The position numbers and the translations under genes are program-made. From the NCBI RefSeq assembly GCF_964355755.1, contig NC_092674.1:2051001-2115000 (forward strand): 64,000 nucleotides of DNA, given 5' to 3'. The notes beneath the pieces were generated by a model. That model saw only the letters and a list, made by a program, of their open reading frames with translations. It ran no database searches and was not told the DNA's origin. This document shows positions 6,745-25,356 of the stretch, piece after piece. The first letter of the stretch is position 1, and each line of letters starts with the position of its first letter. The DNA is from Antedon mediterranea (taxonomy: Eukaryota > Echinodermata > Crinoidea > Comatulida > Antedonidae).

Positions 6745-9700
6745 TTAATCATCATCGTTGTCGTAACCACTCCCTGCTGAGTTATGCCGTAGAAGAAGTT
6801 CCATTTGATCCGAGACAATCTGAAAAGGAAGGTAAGCAGGTTAGAAAAAGAATAGAATAGACTGAATTGGGAATTGATGGGAGAGAAACAAGGGTGCTGG
6901 CTTGGCAATTAAAGGCGGTAGGAACAGGGATGCTGGATTGACAATTGATGGGAGAGAAACAAGGGTGCTGGCTTGGCAATTAAAGGCGGTAGGAACAGGG
7001 ATGCTGGATTGACAATTGATGGGAGAAACAAGGGTGCTGGCTTGGCAATTAAAGGCGGTAGGAACAGGGATGCTGGATTGACAATTGAATTGGCGTGGCT
7101 TATGATGGGGTTGTTGGCTTGAGAAATTTGAACAGGTATTGCGCAATTAACAAATTTACAGTTTACAATGCTACCGAGTGCATTAGCGTTAGTTTGGCCT
7201 GTCATTGGTCAAACTACTTATGTTACAAGTGAAAACAAAACTTCTAGCTTTTCTATTTCTAAAAACTAATACAGTCAACTTTCCCAATACCTTTGGGCTG
7301 GACTAATATGTCTGGTTTTCCAGAAAGTCTCATATTCGGAATGTGTTTTTAATGGTAAAAAGGAACTTGGGACCCTTTGGATCTCACGAAAAGACTGGTT
7401 TTGGGTGACTTCCAGGTTTCAGAGAGTCCGGCATTGGGAGAGTCGATTGTAGTGACAATGTCTCACCCCATTTTGCGTAGTTTCTTTACCGGCATACTCT
7501 TCATAAACAGTATCGTTTTCATGCTCATCTAATTTAGATAAGTGTACACCGTCACTGTCTTTACTCACGTTATAAATATAAATACAAATAAGTACAATCG
7601 GTGCTTGCAAGTAGAAATTCAGCGTGGGGTTGTAACCAAAATGAAATATCGAAAACGTTATCACCACAACTGTCATAACCTGAGTGCTTAGTATATGAAA
7701 CATATTGTCTTTAAATTTTAAAATTATTGACACAGTTAATCCAATAAACGCAATGTCAAAAATCAGAATCGACGAGAAGACGTTGTATCCGTCGAAGAAG
7801 CCACATTTCCAGACACGCTGTCTGTAATCGCTATGAGTTAGTAACGTAACAACGTTAAAGAACACGCCAAACATGTATAGTTTCGTATTCTGAAAAAATA
7901 TACTTTCTTGCAGTCCGCCATCTTGTTTGAATATTTTCTCGTTGTAGATGTTTGCGAACGAAGCAATAAAACAACTTACGATGATCAAAACGTGCCCTGT
8001 ATTAAATATTTTTATTTCCTTTTCGTTGGAATCCTTATGCTCAGTTGTTGAGATGTGTTTTGTTGGTAATAATTCATTTTTAATGTTTTTTTCATAACTG
8101 CATATAACTTTGTCAGATTTTGATGATGTATTCTTTTGTAAATAATTGACATCTTGTTGATGATGTATGCTTTCAGAACTATGACTGCTTTCATTTGACA
8201 AGGAAACAATTGCTAAAAATAAAATAATAATTGACGCCCACTGGACCTTGGTAAACTTCACTCTAAAATAAAAACATTAAAACTATTAAACAAATAGCAA
8301 AGAAAATGTATTCATAATTTCAAACTCTATTATAGCCAATACAATAGAAATCTTCTTTGGGCACCCTATTTACAGGACACCCATTTAGTTTGGAAACTTT
8401 GTTGGGTCTCAAAAGGGTGTCCCATCTCTACCGTATTTTACAAATATTCAGAAAAATATAAAAAATGATGTACTTACTTTAAAATAAATCGAAATAAAAT
8501 TGATGTTGAAATGATAACAAAGTTATTCAATAAAACTGCCACTGCCTGAGATGAATAAAATAAAAACATTTTATACAAAAAGAATATACATAAGAATGAT
8601 ATTGGGTTGATTTAATGATTTGTGTTTTTTTTTTCCATTTACTTTATTTTTGTCTCCATAAAAATACAATACAAAAAAAACACGAGTCCAGGCCGCCTCT
8701 AAAGTTCACAAATTGTAAAAGATAAGACATCAAATTAAGTTCAGCACTTCATTTTGCTACTTATAGACCCTGCCCCCCCCCCCCCCTCCCCCCATTTTCC
8801 AAAATCCTGTATCCACTATTGCATATAATTTCCGAGACAAATTGATGGAGTGTGAAATATCAAAGTAATAGATACACCTCATACAGTAACAGACAGTAAA
8901 TACACCTCATAATAGACAATACATTTCATACAGTAAATAGACAGATGCACCCCATGCAGTAACAGAAAGATATGCTAGTATTTTCTAATTGTAATCTTTG
9001 ATTGTTTTTACTTACCGGCTCCAAGTATGTTAGAGTATAGAATCCAATCAGATTGTCCAAAAAATACAGCAATCCTGGAATACTCCATTTTAGAAAATGT
9101 GCCGTACTGTGCGATGGCTTGCTGAATATTTCAGAAATCTGGCGTCCCTCTTTAAAATAAATATTCAGTCAATTTCTTATCTTTCTTCAAATACTATAGT
9201 ATTTACTATTTATTTATTTATTTTATTTATTAATACCATAAACCAGTGAATTGAAACACTAGCCACATTCACAAAAGATGTTATTATTTGTATTGTGATA
9301 TTGAATATCACGTTAGCAGACCAGGTAAAGGCTTAACAACAATGACCTTGAGTTGTAATTAGTGTATAGCAATTAAAAGCCAATTCTTTTGTTCATCAAT
9401 TTATTAAACATAACAACATCTGTTATCTGTTCTGAATTTAATTAGTGGACAGACTAGTATAGACAGAAATGTGACAATTAATAAAAATGTATTACAGTAT
9501 TAGGAAATACCTATTCAGGGAAATGCCTAGTAAGGGGATGCTTTCCCCTGACATGAATGAGGGAAAATATATTAAGCTCTGTCTACACTATCAAACTAGT
9601 TTGACAAAAAAAGTGTGATGTACCCAAATGTGGTAGTGATATCTTTATGTCCGTATATGGACACATCACATTTTTATTGTCGCATAATGTTTGATAGTGT

Positions 9701-13793: not shown

Positions 13794-13984
13794 AAGCTGT
13801 CTGCACTATCATTATCAACTAATTTGACAAAAAAGTGTGATGTGCCCAAATAGGGTAGTGATATTCCCAAATATGGTAGTGATATTCCCAAATATTGTAG
13901 TGATATGACATCTTTATTTCCATATATGACCACATCACATTTTTTTATCACATAAAGTTCTGTTTGATAGTGTAGATAGAGCTA
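13794..13984. mobile_element. CTCTGTCTACAC-family MITE with triplicated core
   Basis: The left end is mutated (AAGCTGTCTGCACTATC). The core contains three copies of the CCCAAATATGGTAGTGATAT module. The right end reads GATAGTGTAGATAGAGCTA. Confidence 0.85.
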
Positions 13985-14080: not shown

Positions 14081-14086
14081 TTTATT
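14081..14086 (-). terminator. Polyadenylation signal, DOMON/ATP1B-like gene
   Basis: AATAAA on the minus strand, 178 bp past the stop codon at 14264-14266. Confidence 0.6.
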
Positions 14087-14263: not shown

Positions 14264-17200
14264 TCAGTGTTTGGCTGAGCCTTTGATTTTCACCGTGAAG
14301 TTTATTCTACCCTCAGATCGCGAATGGTCAATGTTTGCCGCCCATGTGAAACAGACGATACGGATAGATACATTCTCCACCGGACTCATCATTTGGACGG
14401 TTACAAAAGAGTTGACAAGATCGTCTGATAAAAATCCCGCCGATGGTGTGACCACGACAGATCCAAGTATTCGTTTGTCAGCGTTTGTCTAGAAAAATAA
14501 TGAATACATATACTGTGACTTCATTTTCACGTATGGTCAAAGCTCTGTCTACACTATCAAACAAAAAAATGTGAAGTTCCCATATATGGGCATTATTATG
14601 TCATATCACTACCACATTTAATCATATCACTACCATATGTGGCCATATCACACCTTTTTTGTCAAACTAGTTTGATAGTGTGGACAGAGCTTAAATTTCC
14701 ATTTACCAATAGAGAGCAAAGTAAGACATAAAGCATTGTCAACAAAACTGTGATGTGCCCAAATATGGTAGTGATATGCCCAGATATGGTAGTGATATGA
14801 CATCATCATGCCCATATATGGGTATGAATTCAACACTATGATATCAATGGAAGTAATGGCTGTGTTCTTTTAAGCCACAAAAAGTGGTCTCTCTCTCTCG
14901 TTTTTCAATTATAAATACAGTTACCTTTCCCTCGCACGTTAGAGGCAGGTGAGAGTCAACGTAGACATCTTTAATCGTGGTTGGTATCAGCATTGGTAGG
15001 TATGGCAACGGTGCCCACTCCTTGGGGTTCTATATAGTTGAACATAGACATTATTATTATAAAAATAAAAGATACGTTATTATTTTAAAAATAAATAAAC
15101 TTGATAATCATTGACAACAATCAGCATTTATAACAAAAAGGCAACGATGATATTATAATCTGATGTATGATGATGATGATATTGATGATGATATTTAATA
15201 TTGATGGGGTCATGGGCTGATTATAACATACCTATAATGTTTAAGTTATATTATTAAAATGTATATATTATATTTTTGTTTTGAGTTTGTGTTGTGTCCG
15301 TTGGATATTGTGTTCTGCCAATTCAAACAAAGCAAACAGAATTTTTATTATTTTTTTCTTAAAACAAATGACAATAAATGACACTTGACTTGATAAGAAA
15401 ATAAACACACTCATTGTTGAACCTATTTTGAATTATATCAATTCCTCTGTACTTACTCCCGTAAAAGTAATTATAACGCATGGACAACCACTTGCATATC
15501 CAAATTTAGTAGCCGGATTACAGGTGGCGTGTGCACTAGAATCTGGCAAAAACATCGACAATGCGCGGACGTACTTCATGTAGGTCGACGGTACGGTAGG
15601 CTTGTATGATATCACCGCTTTATCTGGAATCAACTGAAGATCTATAGATTAGTAAAACAACTATTAGATACGTCATTGTTAAATTCACGCCATCTGATTG
15701 GTTTAAAGTTACAACTAATCCCTGCGTCTGTCTTTTATTGTAATCGTTTCTTTCTGCAGATTTCGATAACTCCGTGCTTAGACCCAGAGTTAACCAAGTC
15801 AATATTTGAATAAGGTATATCACTAAAGCTCTGTGTACACTATCAATCCTTTTGTGATAAAAGAAAATGCCCACATAACACGGACATGATGACGTCATAT
15901 CACTACCATATTTGGCCACATCACACTTTTTTTGTCAAACTACTTTGATAGTGTAGACCAAACTATACGGTAGCTATAGAAGTTTAATTCTAATCTTATT
16001 TTTTTCTTTCTTTTTTATTCATTTATTTTTTTTGTTCACGCACTTGGAGGGTCTACAAACTCTTGAGATGCTGCTGGAAGTCCACTGTCCTCGTCGATAT
16101 CAAACGGCCAAGCACCGAACGGAAGAGGTCCTGTCCCGCCATCTGGCCCGTCAGATCCATCCGTCATTGTTATGACGCCACGCGAGGAATTGAAGTTCAC
16201 CATGTATTCGGAAATGACAGGAGTTACACTGTGTTGCATTGGACGGTGTATAGCTGAAATGTACATTTGAAATAATTATCGTATAAAATACAAATGTATC
16301 ATTGTGTCCCCTGCCAAAACAATTCTTTAAAATAATTATTTTTTCTTTATGTCCCTTTCTAAATGTCTCAGATTAATCTTGCTGGCGACATGCGTAGTAC
16401 CGTAAATAACTAAGCGGTTCAATAAAAGGTGTAAGTTTCCCCATGTCGCATTGTATTTCTTGTACAGCTTTGTTTCACTAATGTCCAACCAAACCAGCTT
16501 GGTGTGTACTTGGACGCGACGCAATGCAACGCAAGGCACAATTGACCAGTTAGGATAATCCATAGGCGCGCGTCGTCGTGATTGGTCAAATTCCGTCATT
16601 GGGTTTCGTCCAATAGAAGCAAACTTTAGGCTTGGTTCCTACCCTGGCGCAACACAAGGACATAAGCGCAACGTAAATGATTCGACCAATCACAAGCGAT
16701 GGATTATTCGAAATGCCGCTTGTGTCATTGGTCAACTCGCTTGCGTTGCGTTTACGTACCTCCGCTACGTATCTGTGTGAACCAAGCCTTAGTGAGTGGC
16801 CCAATTCATAATCAATGCTGAGGCTTCGCGAACCACTACAGAGTAAGGCAAACATACTCACATGAAGTTATAGGTCCGTAACCTAAAAACATATAATGTG
16901 GTCGATACAGATTGAACGTCTTGTCGTTTTCAGGTATGTTCTTTTTTCTTGTAAATTTGCAAGATATATATCCATCAACATATGAAGAACTATGGACCAT
17001 CAAATTGTCCTTAAAGAAATCAACATGTGTAAGCATGAAATAGAAGTTATCGAAGTAATTTTGGATTCATCAAAACCGTTACAATTATTCTATACTGTAC
17101 ATTCAACATATTGTAGTTTTAGATACTCTAAAGACGATTTTCCACTAGGCGAATTTGTTCGCGCGAATCGAAACGTCAGCTTATATTACGCGTAGAGAGA

Positions 17201-20200
17201 GATTTTGAAGATGGAAAATTCGCCTAGTCTTCTTGTTGACTCTATAAGCCAAGCCTAGTGGGAAATCGGCTTGATGGCAAAATACTGGTATGGACTTACC
17301 GGACTGGTGATCTCCTCCATGTAATGTCGAGCGGAGTACGCCTGCTTTACATCCGTCCTTCCCTCTGTTTTCCCTCTAATACAAAAAACAACATCGTCTT
17401 CATTCTACAGATTACAAAGATGATCAATTACAAATCTTCATCGATAAACATATTGCAAATCATTAATTTACCTTTTCATATTCCTCACCATGACATCGTC
17501 AATGGAGCAGCCAAGCGGCAGCTTCGTAAAGCTAGGTTCGCATTGGACGGAACGCAATTATGTACGGTACGCGCAATTATTTGCGTTGTGCGTACGTCTT
17601 GCGTTGCTTGAACTAAAAAGTCGAAGTTACTCGAACTATAGAGTTTTAACGTATATTGTGAACAACACTAAAGCTCTGTCTACACTTTTAAACGTTATGT
17701 GCTCATGGGCATGATGATGCCATATCACTACAATATTTGAGAATATCACTATTATTGGGCACATAACACTTTTAGACAAAGCTTTAAAATGGTGTTTGAT
17801 ACTAACCATTTTTTTATCTTCAGAAAAGGCCAGTGCAATCCATCCATTTGATTTACCAGCTAACAGAAATGTAAGAGAGTCACCCGTCTTATTTTCCTTA
17901 ATTCGTACGCTAATATCGCATTTATTCCAATCACAATCATCAGGTACTTTTGCACACTGTTCGTATTTTCCACATTTGTTTAGTTTCAGAAAATCTGGTG
18001 GTTGAAAAGGGTCAGTACTACCTCCTTTGTCTAGTTTGTCAGTTTTTGGTTTTCCAGCTGGTTTTATGTCTGTTTCAGCATAAAGTACATGCTTTGCTAA
18101 AGATACTTTTCTTTTTGTAACCCTTTGAGGTCCTTGCATTAATGGCATGCCTACGAAATTAAAAAAAAACATAAAAACAGTAGGCACTAATAATTGTTAA
18201 CAACATTCAAGTCTAAGTATTAAGAGTTACAAGGTATAAGATAACAAAGTTAAGAACAAAAATGCCTATCTGTAACGTCAAAAATAAGCACAAACTTTGA
18301 GCAGGAACGCGTTCTAATGTTGATAAAAATCTTACGCCTTTTGTACGCGCGCGCCAACTTTGTGCGTCAATATAACAGTAACATCAGAATAATGTCAAAA
18401 GCATACCTTTCTTTAGAGCACCACTAGCAAAAATTAAATACCATTTTCGTTTCATGTTAAAATACTGAGGTACAGACTTTAATATCTTCTTTCTTGTAAA
18501 TACACAATGTATCATTTTGTTTTTACGGTCGTATGTTGCTTTTAATATCGTAGCTCCTTCAATCTGAATATGAAATAATTAATAATAATTACAATTCAAT
18601 TTTATATTTTAAAAAGATCTTCATTGATTGTATTGTTCATCTTAGCCTTGGTTGCGATGAGATATCATTTAAAGATGTATTGTGCCCCAAAAACATGAAA
18701 AATAAAGATAAAATAAGACTTTGAATAGATTATTTTGTAGATTTAATAAAGCTAATCACTTCGGTAGAAAAAAGGGAACAATTGAAAGTTTTCATCTATA
18801 AAATGAAAAAATAAATGATTAAATTCAACCAAAAAACCATTTGCTGGTAGCCAATTTGACTATTTTTTGCTTTAAATTACAGGTTTTCAGGTAAATACAT
18901 TTTTTCCATCCCATTTTTGGTCAAAGTGGATAAATATTATGTAACATTAAAATGGCATATTAAAAAAAAAATTATGAATGAATTATTTTTTTAGGGGGAC
19001 AATACATCTTCAATAAAGAAACAGGAACAAAAACGTGTACCGGTAGTGCAATTTTATTCTAATTAGTTGATACTGTATCATGCTAAATACAAATCGTAAA
19101 TTAACTATTACGAACTCTTGCCCGCGTTCAAGGTGCTGAAGTCAGATGTTTTGCCCAAATTTCACCCCGAGTATCCATACAATTACGTCATAATTAGGAA
19201 AACATCTGACTAATCAGCTACAATAAAATAATACAACAGGGAAGAGTAAAATTATACTCTTCCCTCCTGAAAATAACAAACCAAATCATCAACGTGTAAT
19301 CTTGAATATTCTCCATATATGTGTTTTACTTGCACTTTCGTTTCATTTAAGACACAGGCTACCATGTCATCACTGCCCTAGTGAAACAAAAATTAAAGGC
19401 TAGCTCCATGTATACCATTTTAAGCTCTGACTACACGATCAAACTAGTTTGATAAAAAAAAATGTGAGGTGCCCAAATATAGTAGTGATATACCCAAATA
19501 TGGCAGTGATATGACATCATCATGTCTATGGGCACATGACATTATTTGACACGTAAAGTTTTATGGTGTTGACAGACCTTTAGTTTTTATTAAACTTATT
19601 TTGTAACAACTTTATAATATTAACAATCCCACTTATTTTTTCTTCAGCGGTAAAAAGTAAAAAGATCATCGTAATAAAGCCTATAAAATAACTTTCCAAT
19701 GTGAGTGCAACCGACTTTTTCATATGTTATAAGAAGAATTGACTGTCACAACACTACACTATTGCATATTTATAAATAAAATATAAATATAAATCGAACG
19801 ATTGATTGATTGATTGATCAAACTTTTTGTGACAAAAAAAATATGAAGTGCCCAAATATGGTAGTGAGATGACGTCGTCACATACAATTCGATAGTGTAG
19901 ACAGAGCTTTAGGGAAAAGGTATATAAATCGAAAGAATTACAACCAATTTTACACAGAAGATCAGTAATATCTAAATTACAAATAGTACCCGGTTGTGGA
20001 TTGTAAGCAAAAATCAGTTTAAAGCATCATATAATTTAAACGTAACATAGACGTAAAACAAACCATTTCGTTTGTCCTAATCTCACCACAAATTTATCCT
20101 TTGATAAGCCTACAGCTACAAAGCCATCAGCGCTACCTCGTAGGTTGAATTTAAAAGATTTTTTATCACTGGTTTCTTTGACAGAGAGGGCATATCGACA

Positions 20201-20368
20201 GTTGCCGTCTTCTGGGTTACATTTGGCAGGTTGCAGATAACAAGCAGAACGGTAACAAAGTTTAGGTGTCGTCGTAGTAGACTTTAAATCGACCTTCGGG
20301 GAAACGTTTTGTCCCATACATCCGGATAGCCAAATCACGAGAACAATTAAAGAGCTTTTTGTAGGCAT
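14264..20368 (-). CDS. Secreted DOMON-DOMON protein with Na,K-ATPase beta-type ectodomain
   Basis: Eleven coding exons form one frame: 20087-20368, 19282-19377, 18407-18563, 17807-18150, 17472-17521, 17300-17375, 16862-17009, 16044-16253, 15457-15623, 14925-15029, 14264-14488, for 619 residues. Residues 1-20 are a signal peptide. DOMON 1 spans about 55-178 (GFVAVGLSKDKF, then GSDDMVACV, then HCVFTRKK and WYLIFASG). DOMON 2 spans about 250-384 (NGWIALAFSEDKKM, SIDDVM, ISCKFTRKK, YMFLGYG). DOMON domains bind heme or sugars, as in ferric reductase-like FRRS1. Residues 386-455 are a proline/glycine-rich linker. Residues 456-619 match the ATPase beta ectodomain: ISYKP, then C-NPATKFGYASGCPC-VII, LTCEGK and IRIVC, keeping four of its six disulfide cysteines. 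The usual beta-subunit cytoplasmic and membrane segments are absent. The 8-to-9 junction uses donor AA/GTGCGT and acceptor TTCCAG/AT. The join needs transcript support. Confidence 0.75.
14539..14693. mobile_element. CTCTGTCTACAC-family MITE, intact ends
   Basis: AAAGCTCTGTCTACACTATC and GATAGTGTGGACAGAGCTT. Lies in the last intron of the DOMON/ATP1B-like gene. Confidence 0.9.
14741..14825. mobile_element. CTCTGTCTACAC-family MITE, core fragment
   Basis: Two CCCAAATATGGTAGTGATAT-like modules and the CATCATCATGCCCATATATGG centre, without terminal repeats. Confidence 0.7.
15825..15964. mobile_element. CTCTGTCTACAC-family MITE
   Basis: Left end AAAGCTCTGTGTACACTATC; right end diverged after GATAGTGTAGAC. 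Lies between exons 8 and 9 of the DOMON/ATP1B-like gene, the intron that joins the two domain types. Confidence 0.85.
16627..16791. mobile_element. MITE with TAGGCTTGGTTC ends
   Basis: Inverted ends TAGGCTTGGTTC and GAACCAAGCCTTA enclose paired internal text (GACCAATCACAAGCG, CATTGGTCAACTCGCTTGCG). Related sequence occurs at 16497-16560, 17530-17620 and 49490-49760. Confidence 0.75.
17147..17232. mobile_element. Small inverted-repeat element
   Basis: CACTAGGCGAATTTG at left and AAATTCGCCTAGT at right pair, enclosing 60 bp. It lies in the intron before exon 7 of the DOMON/ATP1B-like gene. Confidence 0.5.
17670..17788. mobile_element. CTCTGTCTACAC-family MITE, short variant beside an exon
   Basis: Left end AAAGCTCTGTCTACACTTT and right end AGACAAAGCTTTA. 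Ends 18 bp from the donor end of exon 4 of the DOMON/ATP1B-like gene (17807). Confidence 0.8.
18669..19013. mobile_element. TTAA-flanked MITE, copy 1 (piggyBac-like)
   Basis: Left TTAA then AGATGTATTGTGCCCC; right GGGGGACAATACATCTT followed by a mutated flank CAA. About 340 bp. Shares internal text (CATGAAAAATAAAGAT, GGTCAAAGTGGATAA) with 39035-39356 and 51547-51899. Confidence 0.8.
19421..19582. mobile_element. CTCTGTCTACAC-family MITE, diverged ends
   Basis: Left end TAAGCTCTGACTACACGATC; right end GGTGTTGACAGACCTTTAG. Core has two ATATGG-type modules. Confidence 0.8.
19816..19911. mobile_element. CTCTGTCTACAC-family MITE, left end lost
   Basis: Begins GATCAAACTTTTTGTGACAAAA after a GATT run and ends GATAGTGTAGACAGAGCTTTAG. 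Confidence 0.8.
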
Positions 20369-20983
20369 CTTTGCCTAAAGAAAATATAAAACAATATCAA
20401 TATAAGTAAACAAAGTTAAATAAAATCAACTGGATTGGTTAGTGACAACGTTATGCATTTACTTGAATAAAAATGATAATTTATATATATATACTAGACA
20501 AAAAATATAAATAATACAATGCATTCCTTTAATTTCCCGATACTATATATTAAAAAATAATTACAGCTATATCTATTTTTAGTATTTATTTTATTCCTCT
20601 GTAATTGCTTTTGTATATATAAGTTATAGTGAGGCTTTCGAAACTATTGAACGAGTCTAATACACATTTCAACGATAGTTATATTACATAAACTCTGGTA
20701 CACTTCAAACCCTGCCACTCCCAATCAAAGGACGTGTTTTTAATCCTTAACATATGAAAAATGTGTTAAATTGTAGTTAACATGTCCAACTGGGAGCCAA
20801 CCTAGGCCAACTGTTAGGACCTACACCTGTTACCAGCTCCTACCACCCTCTAGAGTTTTCAGGCTGCTGGTTTTGACCTACAAACAAGGCAATGAACTTT
20901 AAGCCCACTTTAAGTGCAATACACCGAAATACGTGGCAATGTTATATTCATTAAGGTGTCAAACCATAAACACAATATATCCT

Positions 20984-21163
20984 CATGCTGCTATTAGTTG
21001 TTAATGACGTCATAGAGACACAAAGTTGACGCGCGCGTCAAATTCGTATTCTCATGCTGCTAATAGTTGTTAATGACGTCATAGAGACACAAATTTGACG
21101 CGCGCGTCAACGCGTACCATTTTCATCAGATTGAGCACGCCCGCGTTATATTTTATGACGTCA
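20984..21163. promoter_or_regulatory. Three CRE palindromes upstream of the DOMON/ATP1B-like gene
   Basis: TGACGTCA occurs at 21005-21012, 21074-21081 and 21156-21163. The first two lie in a 65-bp tandem duplication that also repeats CATGCTGCTA-TAGTTGTTAA and GACGCGCGCGTCAA. This is 0.6-0.8 kb upstream of the ATG at 20368. TGACGTCA is the known CREB/ATF site; use here is inferred. Confidence 0.55.
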
Positions 21164-22677: not shown

Positions 22678-24273
22678 TTATGTAGAATCCTTATCAATTG
22701 CTTCATTTTCCTCCTTTTTCGTTGTTCTTTCTAGTAGTTGTATGTATTGTTTTCGACGCCTGTAACTGGAAATACAACGCCTGTGGACAAAAATGAATGA
22801 TTGTATTAGGCCTAAATCAACGCTCAGAGAGAGTGAAACAAATCGTTGACAACAGGGAGTATGTTATTGCTGTGTGGTTGAGTTATGCTGTGGGTGGGTG
22901 GTAGGGTTGGGTGGGTTGGGTTATGCTGTGGGTGGGTGGGTGGTAGGGTTGGGTGGGTTGGGTTATGCTGTGGGTGGGTGGTAGGGTTGGGTGGGTTGGG
23001 TTATGCTGTGGGTGGGTGGTAGGGTTGGGTGGGTTGGGTTATGCTGTGGGTGGGTGGTAGGGTTGGGTGGGTTGAGTTATGTTGTGGGTGGGTGGTAGGG
23101 TTGGGTGGGTTGGGTTTGAGAAACAACTGATGATAATTATGATCCAATTTTTGGTCAAAGTGAATAACATTTTTTTTTTGAGGGAGATAATAAATCGATT
23201 TGAATGAGCGGCTGCTGTATTTACCTGATCTGTGGTATCTTTAAGTAAAGACACACCAGTAGTATGAAGAGGGTTCCACCAACTGCAAGTTCCCACCAAA
23301 TCCAGTTGCAGTGCAACGCACCTATGTCTACCTTTGTTATTATTTTATTATCTAGGCCTAAATCATTGCAGCGCGGTATGATATCTTTACGTCCCTTAGG
23401 TGCCAATATCCCTTCATTTAATTTTATCCAATTGATAAACCAGACCAAGTCACAGTTGCATGTGAATGGGTTACTAAAAACTGATAACTTATTCAAATTG
23501 GGAAAATCTTGCAATCCGGCCGAGGGACCTATATTTGCTAGTAGATTGTCGTGGATATACAGTACTTCAATACTGGCACTTGACGCCTTAAAGAATCCAG
23601 GTGGAATGTACGTGATTTCATTGTTGAAAAGCGCTACAAGATTGAGTTTTGTATGTTTCTTGAATAGACCAGAAGGCAGAAACCGTATGTTGTTGTCGCC
23701 GAGATTAACCCACTTAAGATTCAAGTTATTGTCGAATAAATCTCCGTCGACGGATGTGATGTCACAGTGACGAAGAACGACGATAGTTAAGCTACGAAGC
23801 TCCTCAAACCAACGTTTATTTACCTTTTTTAAGGTATTATAACTTATACGTAAATATGAAAGTTCATCCAAGCCACTAAAAGCGGTATCGTCAATTCTAG
23901 ATTCCGTCAGTTCGTTGTTGATCAAGTCCAAAGAGATAATGGACAAATTCGAAAACCCGTATGCGTCCAACGTCGTTATAGCGTTGCTTCCAAGGTATAA
24001 GTTTTTGGTGTCAACTTGGAGTCGTGGCATCTTGTTCAGATCCTTTGAAGTGCAGTTTACATACCAACTACATTGATGGGAACATTGCAAATCATTTTCA
24101 CAAAAAGAACAAGAGCATTTAACCTCCTCAACACAATCTTTTATTATAAAATCGCAGTGAAAGTCGCAGCCATGACATTTCTTCTCATTGTTGGTACCAT
24201 GGGTAGTACTTACCAATGCACATAGGATTACTAGGCTTACAAATGTTGTCACAGACAAAACACGTAAGTACAT
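22678..24273 (-). CDS. Toll-like leucine-rich-repeat membrane protein without TIR domain
   Basis: Exon 1 is 23225-24273 and exon 2 is 22678-22780; donor CAG/GTAAAT and acceptor CACAG/GCG join in phase to give 383 residues. Residues 1-26 are a signal peptide. Residues 33-74 hold a dense cysteine cluster ending in CSWYVNCTSKDLNKMP and then DTKNLYLGSN, the form of an LRRNT cap seen before the membrane-proximal repeats of Toll receptors. About seven leucine-rich repeats follow (86-270), then an LRRCT cap (NPFTCNCDLVWFINWI ... PRCND ... LHC, 278-322) and a membrane segment at 324-345. The cytoplasmic tail of about 38 residues is basic then acidic (SYRRRKQY ... KKEENEAIDKDST) with no TIR or kinase domain. 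It may be an adhesion protein or a signalling-deficient Toll relative. Without splicing the frame would stop at once after exon 1. Confidence 0.88.
22866..23112. repeat. Minisatellite, about 37-bp G/T-rich unit
   Basis: Roughly six units of TGCTGTGGGTGGGTGGTAGG followed by GTTGGGTGGGTTGGGTTA. Lies in the intron of the leucine-rich-repeat gene. Confidence 0.92.
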
Positions 24274-25356
24274 TTTTGACCGATCATAGAGATATTATAG
24301 AATATATTGCAGTAAACTGATGTATTTCCTTCTTTCAATCGGAACCGACAAAACGAAAACGAGAGTGGCATATTGACATTTCCTATGACGCCTCTAATAG
24401 CAAACATCTCCATGATGATAGCTTCATGAAAAAAAAATGTACCGCGATTTTTAAACAACGAAAAAACAAAAACAATACAAACCGAAAAATTGTAAGGTCT
24501 AATTTTTTTTGTCTAGTCAAGTTTATATTCCTACCGATTACCATGCATCATATCTCATCCCTTCCCTTCCCTACTTCCCACTCTCCTCTCCCAATTCTCC
24601 TCCTCCCCAACCACCTATTCTACTGTCTATAACTTGATCTCTCTCCAAAGCAAGGAAGGAATTTTCTGTCTGCCACCACCAATGTTTGAGATATAAAAAA
24701 ATCCAGTTAATAAACTCACACCCTATTTACAACATGCGAGATATTATTAATCCAGAGGGAGTAAAGACATTTAATACATTTTCTCATAACATTGGCCTGA
24801 ACTCTGTCTCAAAACCGGGGACACGGTGTGAGGCTTGGCCGTTCAGTCAGATAGATAGGCCTACAGACTTGGACGTAAATTCCTCGAAAAGTAAAGTAAT
24901 TGAAACCTATTGTAAAAAAAACAACTCGGGAACAGCCATCATGTTATTGTAAGTATGTTTTGAAGACAAAAAATAGCTTTTTAGTTTATAATAATTACGT
25001 TTTGTTTGTAAGATTCTTGGGTGGGAGAACGAATGAGAGGTGTGCTATCAACTCCCACCACACACCGACGGTGGAAGAGAGACGATTAGCCGCTAGTATT
25101 TTACTTCCGGTAGTTATCAAGTCGGGCTTACAGATGTATACTGCTCAAGTGAATTAACATTATCCTCGAGTACACTATGCTCTTGGTTTATTATGCTGTA
25201 TCCTATATAGGTTCTATCTACCGTCATTACAGTTACTTCAATATGTTATGTATCTTGAACAATATGAATTATTTATTTATTTTAGGCTTAAACTATTGAC
25301 TAATAAAAGCTACTGCCATGATGTGTTATTGTTTACTACTGTACGTATTTAATGTT
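24274..25356. other. Intergenic, nothing coding recognised
   Basis: Upstream side of the leucine-rich-repeat gene, so its promoter should be near 24274-24500. A C/T-rich tract at 24550-24625 is the only compositional feature. Confidence 0.4.

Follow-up and report, generated by a model that had tools for sequence, protein, structure and literature searches.

A crinoid gene predicted to encode a secreted protein of two DOMON domains and a trimmed Na,K-ATPase beta-type lobe

Our analysis of a 64,000-nucleotide window from the crinoid Antedon mediterranea (NC_092674.1, positions 2,051,001 to 2,115,000; contig C5; the assembly totals 354 Mb, with more than 22 Mb in each of its 11 largest contigs) revealed a gene in which exons for two DOMON domains are followed, in phase, by exons related to those of the Na,K-ATPase beta subunit gene, ATP1B. 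On a modest balance of probability, this one gene gives rise to a secreted protein composed of a signal peptide, two DOMONs of the SDR2/FRRS1 type, an acidic Gly-rich linker, and a trimmed beta Ig-like lobe that arose when ATP1B exons 3 to 6 were duplicated and then cut back, with DOMON2 binding heme or iron and the lobe serving in adhesion or docking.

Rebuilt from sequence, the DOMON-beta gene occupies 20368-14264 on the minus strand, a region with zero N, and comprises ten coding exons that encode 618 amino acids with no internal stop. All introns are GT-AG, and their phases (0,0,1,0,0,1,1,0,0) are consistent across exons, in agreement with the first-pass annotation, which had counted eleven exons; ten of these are coding, and the total of eleven holds if one includes a non-coding 5' UTR exon, which is suggested by an acceptor (tttctttag/gcaaagATG) lying six bases upstream of the ATG. 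DOMON1 is spread over coding exons 1 (20087..20368; aa 1-94, with the signal peptide MPTKSSLIVLVIWLSGCMG, a Cys motif, and the first part of the domain), 2 (19282..19377; aa 95-126), and 3 (18407..18563; aa 127-179, where the heme-ligand position holds no His). DOMON2 begins, after a linker, in exon 4 (17807..18150), which ends in SEDKKM, continues through exons 5 (17300..17404; aa 294-328) and 6 (16862..17009; aa 329-378), and finishes in exon 7 (16044..16253). The latter is the fusion exon, as it carries the last residues of DOMON2 (including H380 and H385), a Gly/Asp linker, and QEFVDPPN, the start of the beta ectodomain. The beta part then occupies exons 8 (15457..15641; ectodomain start and CNPATKFGYASGCPCVI, with C488-C502), 9 (14925..15029; as far as LTCEGK, with C541), and 10 (14264..14488; IRIVC with C590, ANIDH, and GRINFTVKIK, followed by the TGA stop, the YYPYxG loop being absent from this exon). 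The first AATAAA poly(A) signal downstream of the stop codon lies at 14081..14086 on the same strand.

The domain content proposed in the first-pass annotation was borne out by HMM searches, which found DOMON twice and Na_K-ATPase once, both families scoring above their Pfam curated cut-offs. Specifically, DOMON (PF03351) scored 117.1 bits over the whole protein against a cut-off of 32.7, with 55 bits for DOMON1 (56-174) and 68 for DOMON2 (255-373), while Na_K-ATPase (PF00287, cut-off 23.3 bits) matched residues 485-605 with 35.2 bits in the whole protein and 41.3 bits when the C-terminal part was searched alone. Residues 5-19 form the sole candidate hydrophobic N-terminus, and no transmembrane segment follows them, the maximum hydropathy in 19-residue windows over the rest of the 618-aa protein being 1.31; the signal peptide first proposed thus stands. 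In a phmmer search of the PDB with the 618-aa protein, Na,K-ATPase beta chains matched with an E-value of 7e-8 and were, apart from one chance-level match (E 1.5), the only hits; this search also placed beta homology in a separate stretch, QEFVDPPNLQLIPD..YMKYVRALSMFLP, that had not been claimed before. No DOMON chain was among the PDB matches to the DOMON sequence or to a small profile. Against the genome's own beta genes, the beta part gave alignment scores of 120 (ATP1B) and 138 (a second fusion, Kazal-beta, discussed below), compared with 30 +/- 4.5 for shuffles, at an identity of 27-28% to the genome's other copies. An assembly chimera is unlikely, given a window without N and an identity to other copies of merely that level.

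Within the beta part, the core is kept (CNP..FGYASG.PC, LTCEGK, IRIVC, ANIDH, and GRINFTVKI), as are the second and third disulfide cysteine pairs (C488-C502 and C541-C590), confirming the two of three disulfides recognized earlier; the first pair is gone together with its segment, and an additional Cys (C500) sits in the FGY motif. The Na,K-ATPase beta subunit is a type II membrane protein with an N-terminal membrane segment and three ectodomain disulfides. In the DOMON-beta protein, the signal peptide and DOMONs stand where the membrane segment would be, two of the three disulfides are present, and the YYPYxG loop is absent; the score against the Na,K-ATPase beta subunit equivalog (TIGR01107) is 38.5 bits, far under the cut-off of 189. 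Because the membrane segment and conserved ectodomain parts are missing and the equivalog score is so low, the protein is predicted to be unable to act as a normal pump subunit.

The ancestry of the beta part can be read from its introns. ATP1B lies on the same chromosome, 230 kb away (C5:2278766-2302212), and all three retained introns around and within the beta part match it in position and phase (PP-G/L, phase 1; LNR/VW, phase 0; CEVY/KD, phase 0). A further ATP1B intron, after LYD (phase 1), falls in the segment missing from the DOMON-beta gene; there, coding exon 8 is the counterpart of ATP1B exons 3 and 4 fused into one, minus one intron and about 45 residues that include the first disulfide. 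Since intron positions and phases are conserved, the sequences show descent of the beta part from ATP1B exons by DNA duplication, and a retrocopy origin is ruled out on the same ground. The earlier proposal, in which a secreted DOMON protein acquired a beta ectodomain, therefore holds for the transfer itself, although what was retained is the ectodomain start and the C-terminal Ig-like lobe rather than the whole ectodomain. We propose that a duplication took in ATP1B exons 3 to 6 and the final few codons of the transmembrane exon and placed this copy downstream of a two-DOMON gene, and that a later deletion across old exons 3 and 4 would have removed the first-disulfide segment and one intron. 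Relative to ATP1B (PF00287), then, the DOMON-beta protein shares the homologous ectodomain start and lobe, whereas it lacks the cytoplasmic and membrane segments, the first-disulfide segment, and the YYPYxG loop, which in ATP1B reads YYPYLG, and its lobe sits behind DOMONs.

The window's DOMONs presumably resemble those of FRRS1 and FRRS1L. The two were said at first pass to be split alike by introns, and indeed both show the phase pattern 0,0,1, which, with an intact Cys framework, they have in common with their closest paralogue. The closest paralogues are two adjacent single-DOMON genes without a beta part (C5:31711274-31716970; L028 2275-7970), one with an anchor-like hydrophobic tail and the other with a Gly-rich tail (GRRPGGGGG...GYDYYGG). 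In CG8399, the insect SDR2 orthologue, a SxDxxMGxD motif contains the putative heme ligand Met286, paired with His379, and Ser281, Asp283, and Asp289 form a possible iron site (PMC10691727). DOMON2 has SEDKKMNED, with M293 and with N replacing the motif G, plus H385, which is aligned with a His of the DOMON paralogue; M293 and H385 are 92 residues apart, compared with 93 between the CG8399 ligands. DOMON1 has SKDKFVGSD, in which Val94 replaces the Met, and no His near its end. The original suggestion of heme or sugar binding can thereby be narrowed to an SDR2/CG8399-type site (S-x-D-x-x-M-G-x-D), and because, by alignment, the candidate Met and His occur in DOMON2 only, at most one heme per chain is predicted. 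DOMON2 would most likely bind heme b or iron (via M293 and H385, or D290 and D296/D297), with DOMON1 as a putative non-heme partner.

These features set the DOMON-beta protein among, yet apart from, known DOMON architectures. With the SDR2 and CG8399 (CYBDOM) proteins it shares the SxDxxM(G)xD site, the Cys framework, and, in DOMON2, the candidate Met and His (PMC10691727), whereas it has no reeler domain or membrane anchor, and no cytochrome b561 membrane domain was found by Pfam match or as a membrane segment anywhere in the 618 residues; moreover, it has two DOMONs and a C-terminal beta lobe. It likewise resembles secreted or anchored DOMON cytochromes of the AIR12 type in having DOMON without cytochrome b561 (PMC10784544), from which it differs in that AIR12 is a GPI-anchored plant protein with a single DOMON and no beta domain.

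What, then, might a beta lobe do behind two DOMONs? Beta subunits ordinarily occur as obligate partners of the pump, and to what extent their adhesive lobe can work independently of it is debated. Trans binding between beta1 ectodomains is mediated by two segments of the Ig-like domain, 198-207 and 221-229 (PMC6770782; PMC12040271). In the lobe, the residues aligned with 221-229 are kept (KTNADKRILG), while the counterparts of 198-207 are without clear conservation. A pump-subunit role seems to us less likely than one in adhesion or docking, with the lobe as a module that carries a DOMON pair predicted to bind heme or iron, because the 221-229-aligned residues and the Ig core are kept but the membrane segment, first disulfide, and YYPYxG loop are lost. 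Such a module may hold a redox or metal module near beta-bearing epithelial surfaces or in the matrix. It is doubtful, though deserving of weight, that the lobe instead drifts or serves as no more than an Ig-like structural spacer or cap, with all activity in the DOMON pair: the low identity, the loss of the first-disulfide segment and of the loop, and the additional Cys (C500) in the FGY motif would fit, whereas retention of the core motifs and of two disulfide pairs is not expected under pure drift. More improbable is a lobe that still recognises the Na,K-ATPase, so that the protein, in soluble form, would regulate the pump or beta-beta adhesion or act as a decoy for either. Common descent with ATP1B, the trans binding of beta1 ectodomains, and the kept 221-229 segment speak for this; against it, the protein lacks a membrane segment as well as the first disulfide and the loop, and published work holds that assembled beta needs its disulfides for ER exit, although that work concerns the pump complex.

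A further alternative is that there are two transcription units. Read through its donor, exon 7 continues as ...FVDPPSA to an in-frame TGA, followed by AATAAATGAATAAA, with AATAAA at 16027 and 16019 (17 and 25 nt past the exon). A DOMON-DOMON gene could end there, its beta exons being orphaned or belonging to another transcript. Third-position GC also differs between the halves, at 0.30 for DOMON exons and 0.48 for beta exons, a contrast that fits separate histories, as from a fusion, and would also fit two separate genes. The splice from 16044 to 15641 is nonetheless supported as the predicted junction because its donor (CAA/GTGCGT; 6.85 bits on a generic weight matrix) is the top-scoring GT site in 16253-15642, is in phase 1 as exon 8 requires, and is crossed by homology to beta, which begins upstream of it (QEFVDPPN/LQLIPD versus beta1 YQDRVAPPG LTQIPQ in the phmmer search of the PDB) and extends downstream of this homologous phase-1 intron. 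The resemblance of the exon 7 end (SQEFVDPPN) to beta1 YQDRVAPPG, over nine residues, has a p of about 4e-4 relative to random nonamers. Only 402 bases separate exon 7 from exon 8, and a scan of the open frames and donors in this intron gave no convincing candidate for a membrane exon, the occurrence of which had been raised at first pass as grounds for doubting the fusion; the one open stretch with weak hydrophobicity is part of a repeat-derived frame, and none of the twelve best donors follows it. The idea that this intron supplies a membrane exon to an independent beta gene was rejected for want of a candidate with a good donor. As the three beta exons are moreover open, in phase, and provided with good splice sites, two separate units are quite improbable, and the TGA and AATAAA signals directly past exon 7 make a DOMON-only form possible as a second transcript form of the same gene. 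That the gene is decaying and without function is very improbable, since deletions in the beta part and the lost Met and His of DOMON1 are set against 618 open codons over ten exons, with all splice sites and the DOMON Cys frameworks intact.

The fusion is not unique in kind, as another gene of this genome, on a different chromosome, encodes a beta fusion that is likewise predicted to be secreted. The Kazal-beta gene (C9:3558000-3566999; L027, minus strand, 5868-2659) has eight exons in phase and encodes 526 aa, with a signal peptide, three Kazal domains, and a complete beta ectodomain retaining all six of six cysteines and a YPY-type loop (HFPYM); Pfam scores are 101.5 bits for Na_K-ATPase and 66.5 for Kazal_2. 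Like the DOMON-beta protein, it is not a pump subunit and has a signal peptide and extracellular modules joined to a beta ectodomain at the same phase-1 intron; it differs in having Kazal domains in place of DOMON, an ectodomain that is complete, with the loop and three disulfides, and a higher Pfam score. The Kazal exons are also of phase 1-1, as exon shuffling usually requires. In a tree of six beta domains, Kazal-beta grouped with the canonical sequence at 76%, with the neighbouring node at 41%, and the six sequences do not resolve whether the two fusions are sisters. No further beta-ectodomain genes were found in this genome by a protein search or by a family search with E values as high as 10, searches that may miss divergent exons, and a search of viral contigs found no relatives. 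Two weak matches with stops, to the N-terminal/membrane part of PF00287 (C9:18429528-18429704, L042; C2:37567407-37567562, L043), are possibly divergent or broken beta-like exons. We infer that both fusions are secreted proteins that reuse the Ig-like beta lobe for adhesion or docking. It is an evenly poised proposition that, in this lineage, the beta ectodomain is a mobile extracellular module, cut at the phase-1 intron and inserted on at least two occasions downstream of secreted modules (DOMON-DOMON and three Kazal domains), yielding secreted redox/metal or protease-inhibitor parts on a pump-derived adhesion lobe.

The surroundings of the gene add several observations. Two 64-nt copies, 95% identical and 69 apart, lie 610-740 nt upstream of the ATG (20978..21110, plus strand); each holds TGACGTCA and the palindrome TTGACGCGCGCGTCAA, a genome search found no further copies, and the pair is possibly a promoter element. 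A MITE-like short repeat, in which a 21-nt unit (GTGATATGCCCAAATATG) recurs a variable number of times and the ends resemble ACTATCAAACTAGTTTGAC, occurs in the introns and flanks of the DOMON-beta gene (13810-13945, 14563-14815, 15821-15958, 17666-17756, 19437-19529, and 19816-19914) and in ATP1B (L026 6070-6240). The sequence TAGGCCTA is found 19 times in the window, against 0.5 expected. Directly upstream of the gene, on the minus strand, is a single-exon open frame of 357 aa with leucine-rich repeats and hydrophobic ends (23221-24294), and another minus-strand frame (7419-8276) matches nucleotide-sugar transporters (Nuc_sug_transp, 98 bits). Elsewhere, the small contigs C16 and C18 (L035, L030) are full of long tandem arrays that read openly as LLGTTRNYSE or NIPGTYPEHTR repeats.

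A search of the literature, covering open-access papers, found no published description of either the DOMON-DOMON-beta or the Kazal-beta layout. The beta lobe is a new partner among known DOMON architectures, and evolution appears to have turned a known pump-subunit component into a freestanding extracellular module. A natural secreted lobe-only protein and a secreted full-ectodomain version, occurring in one genome, would also inform how the beta lobe is used as a module, and provide a direct test case for its pump-independent function.
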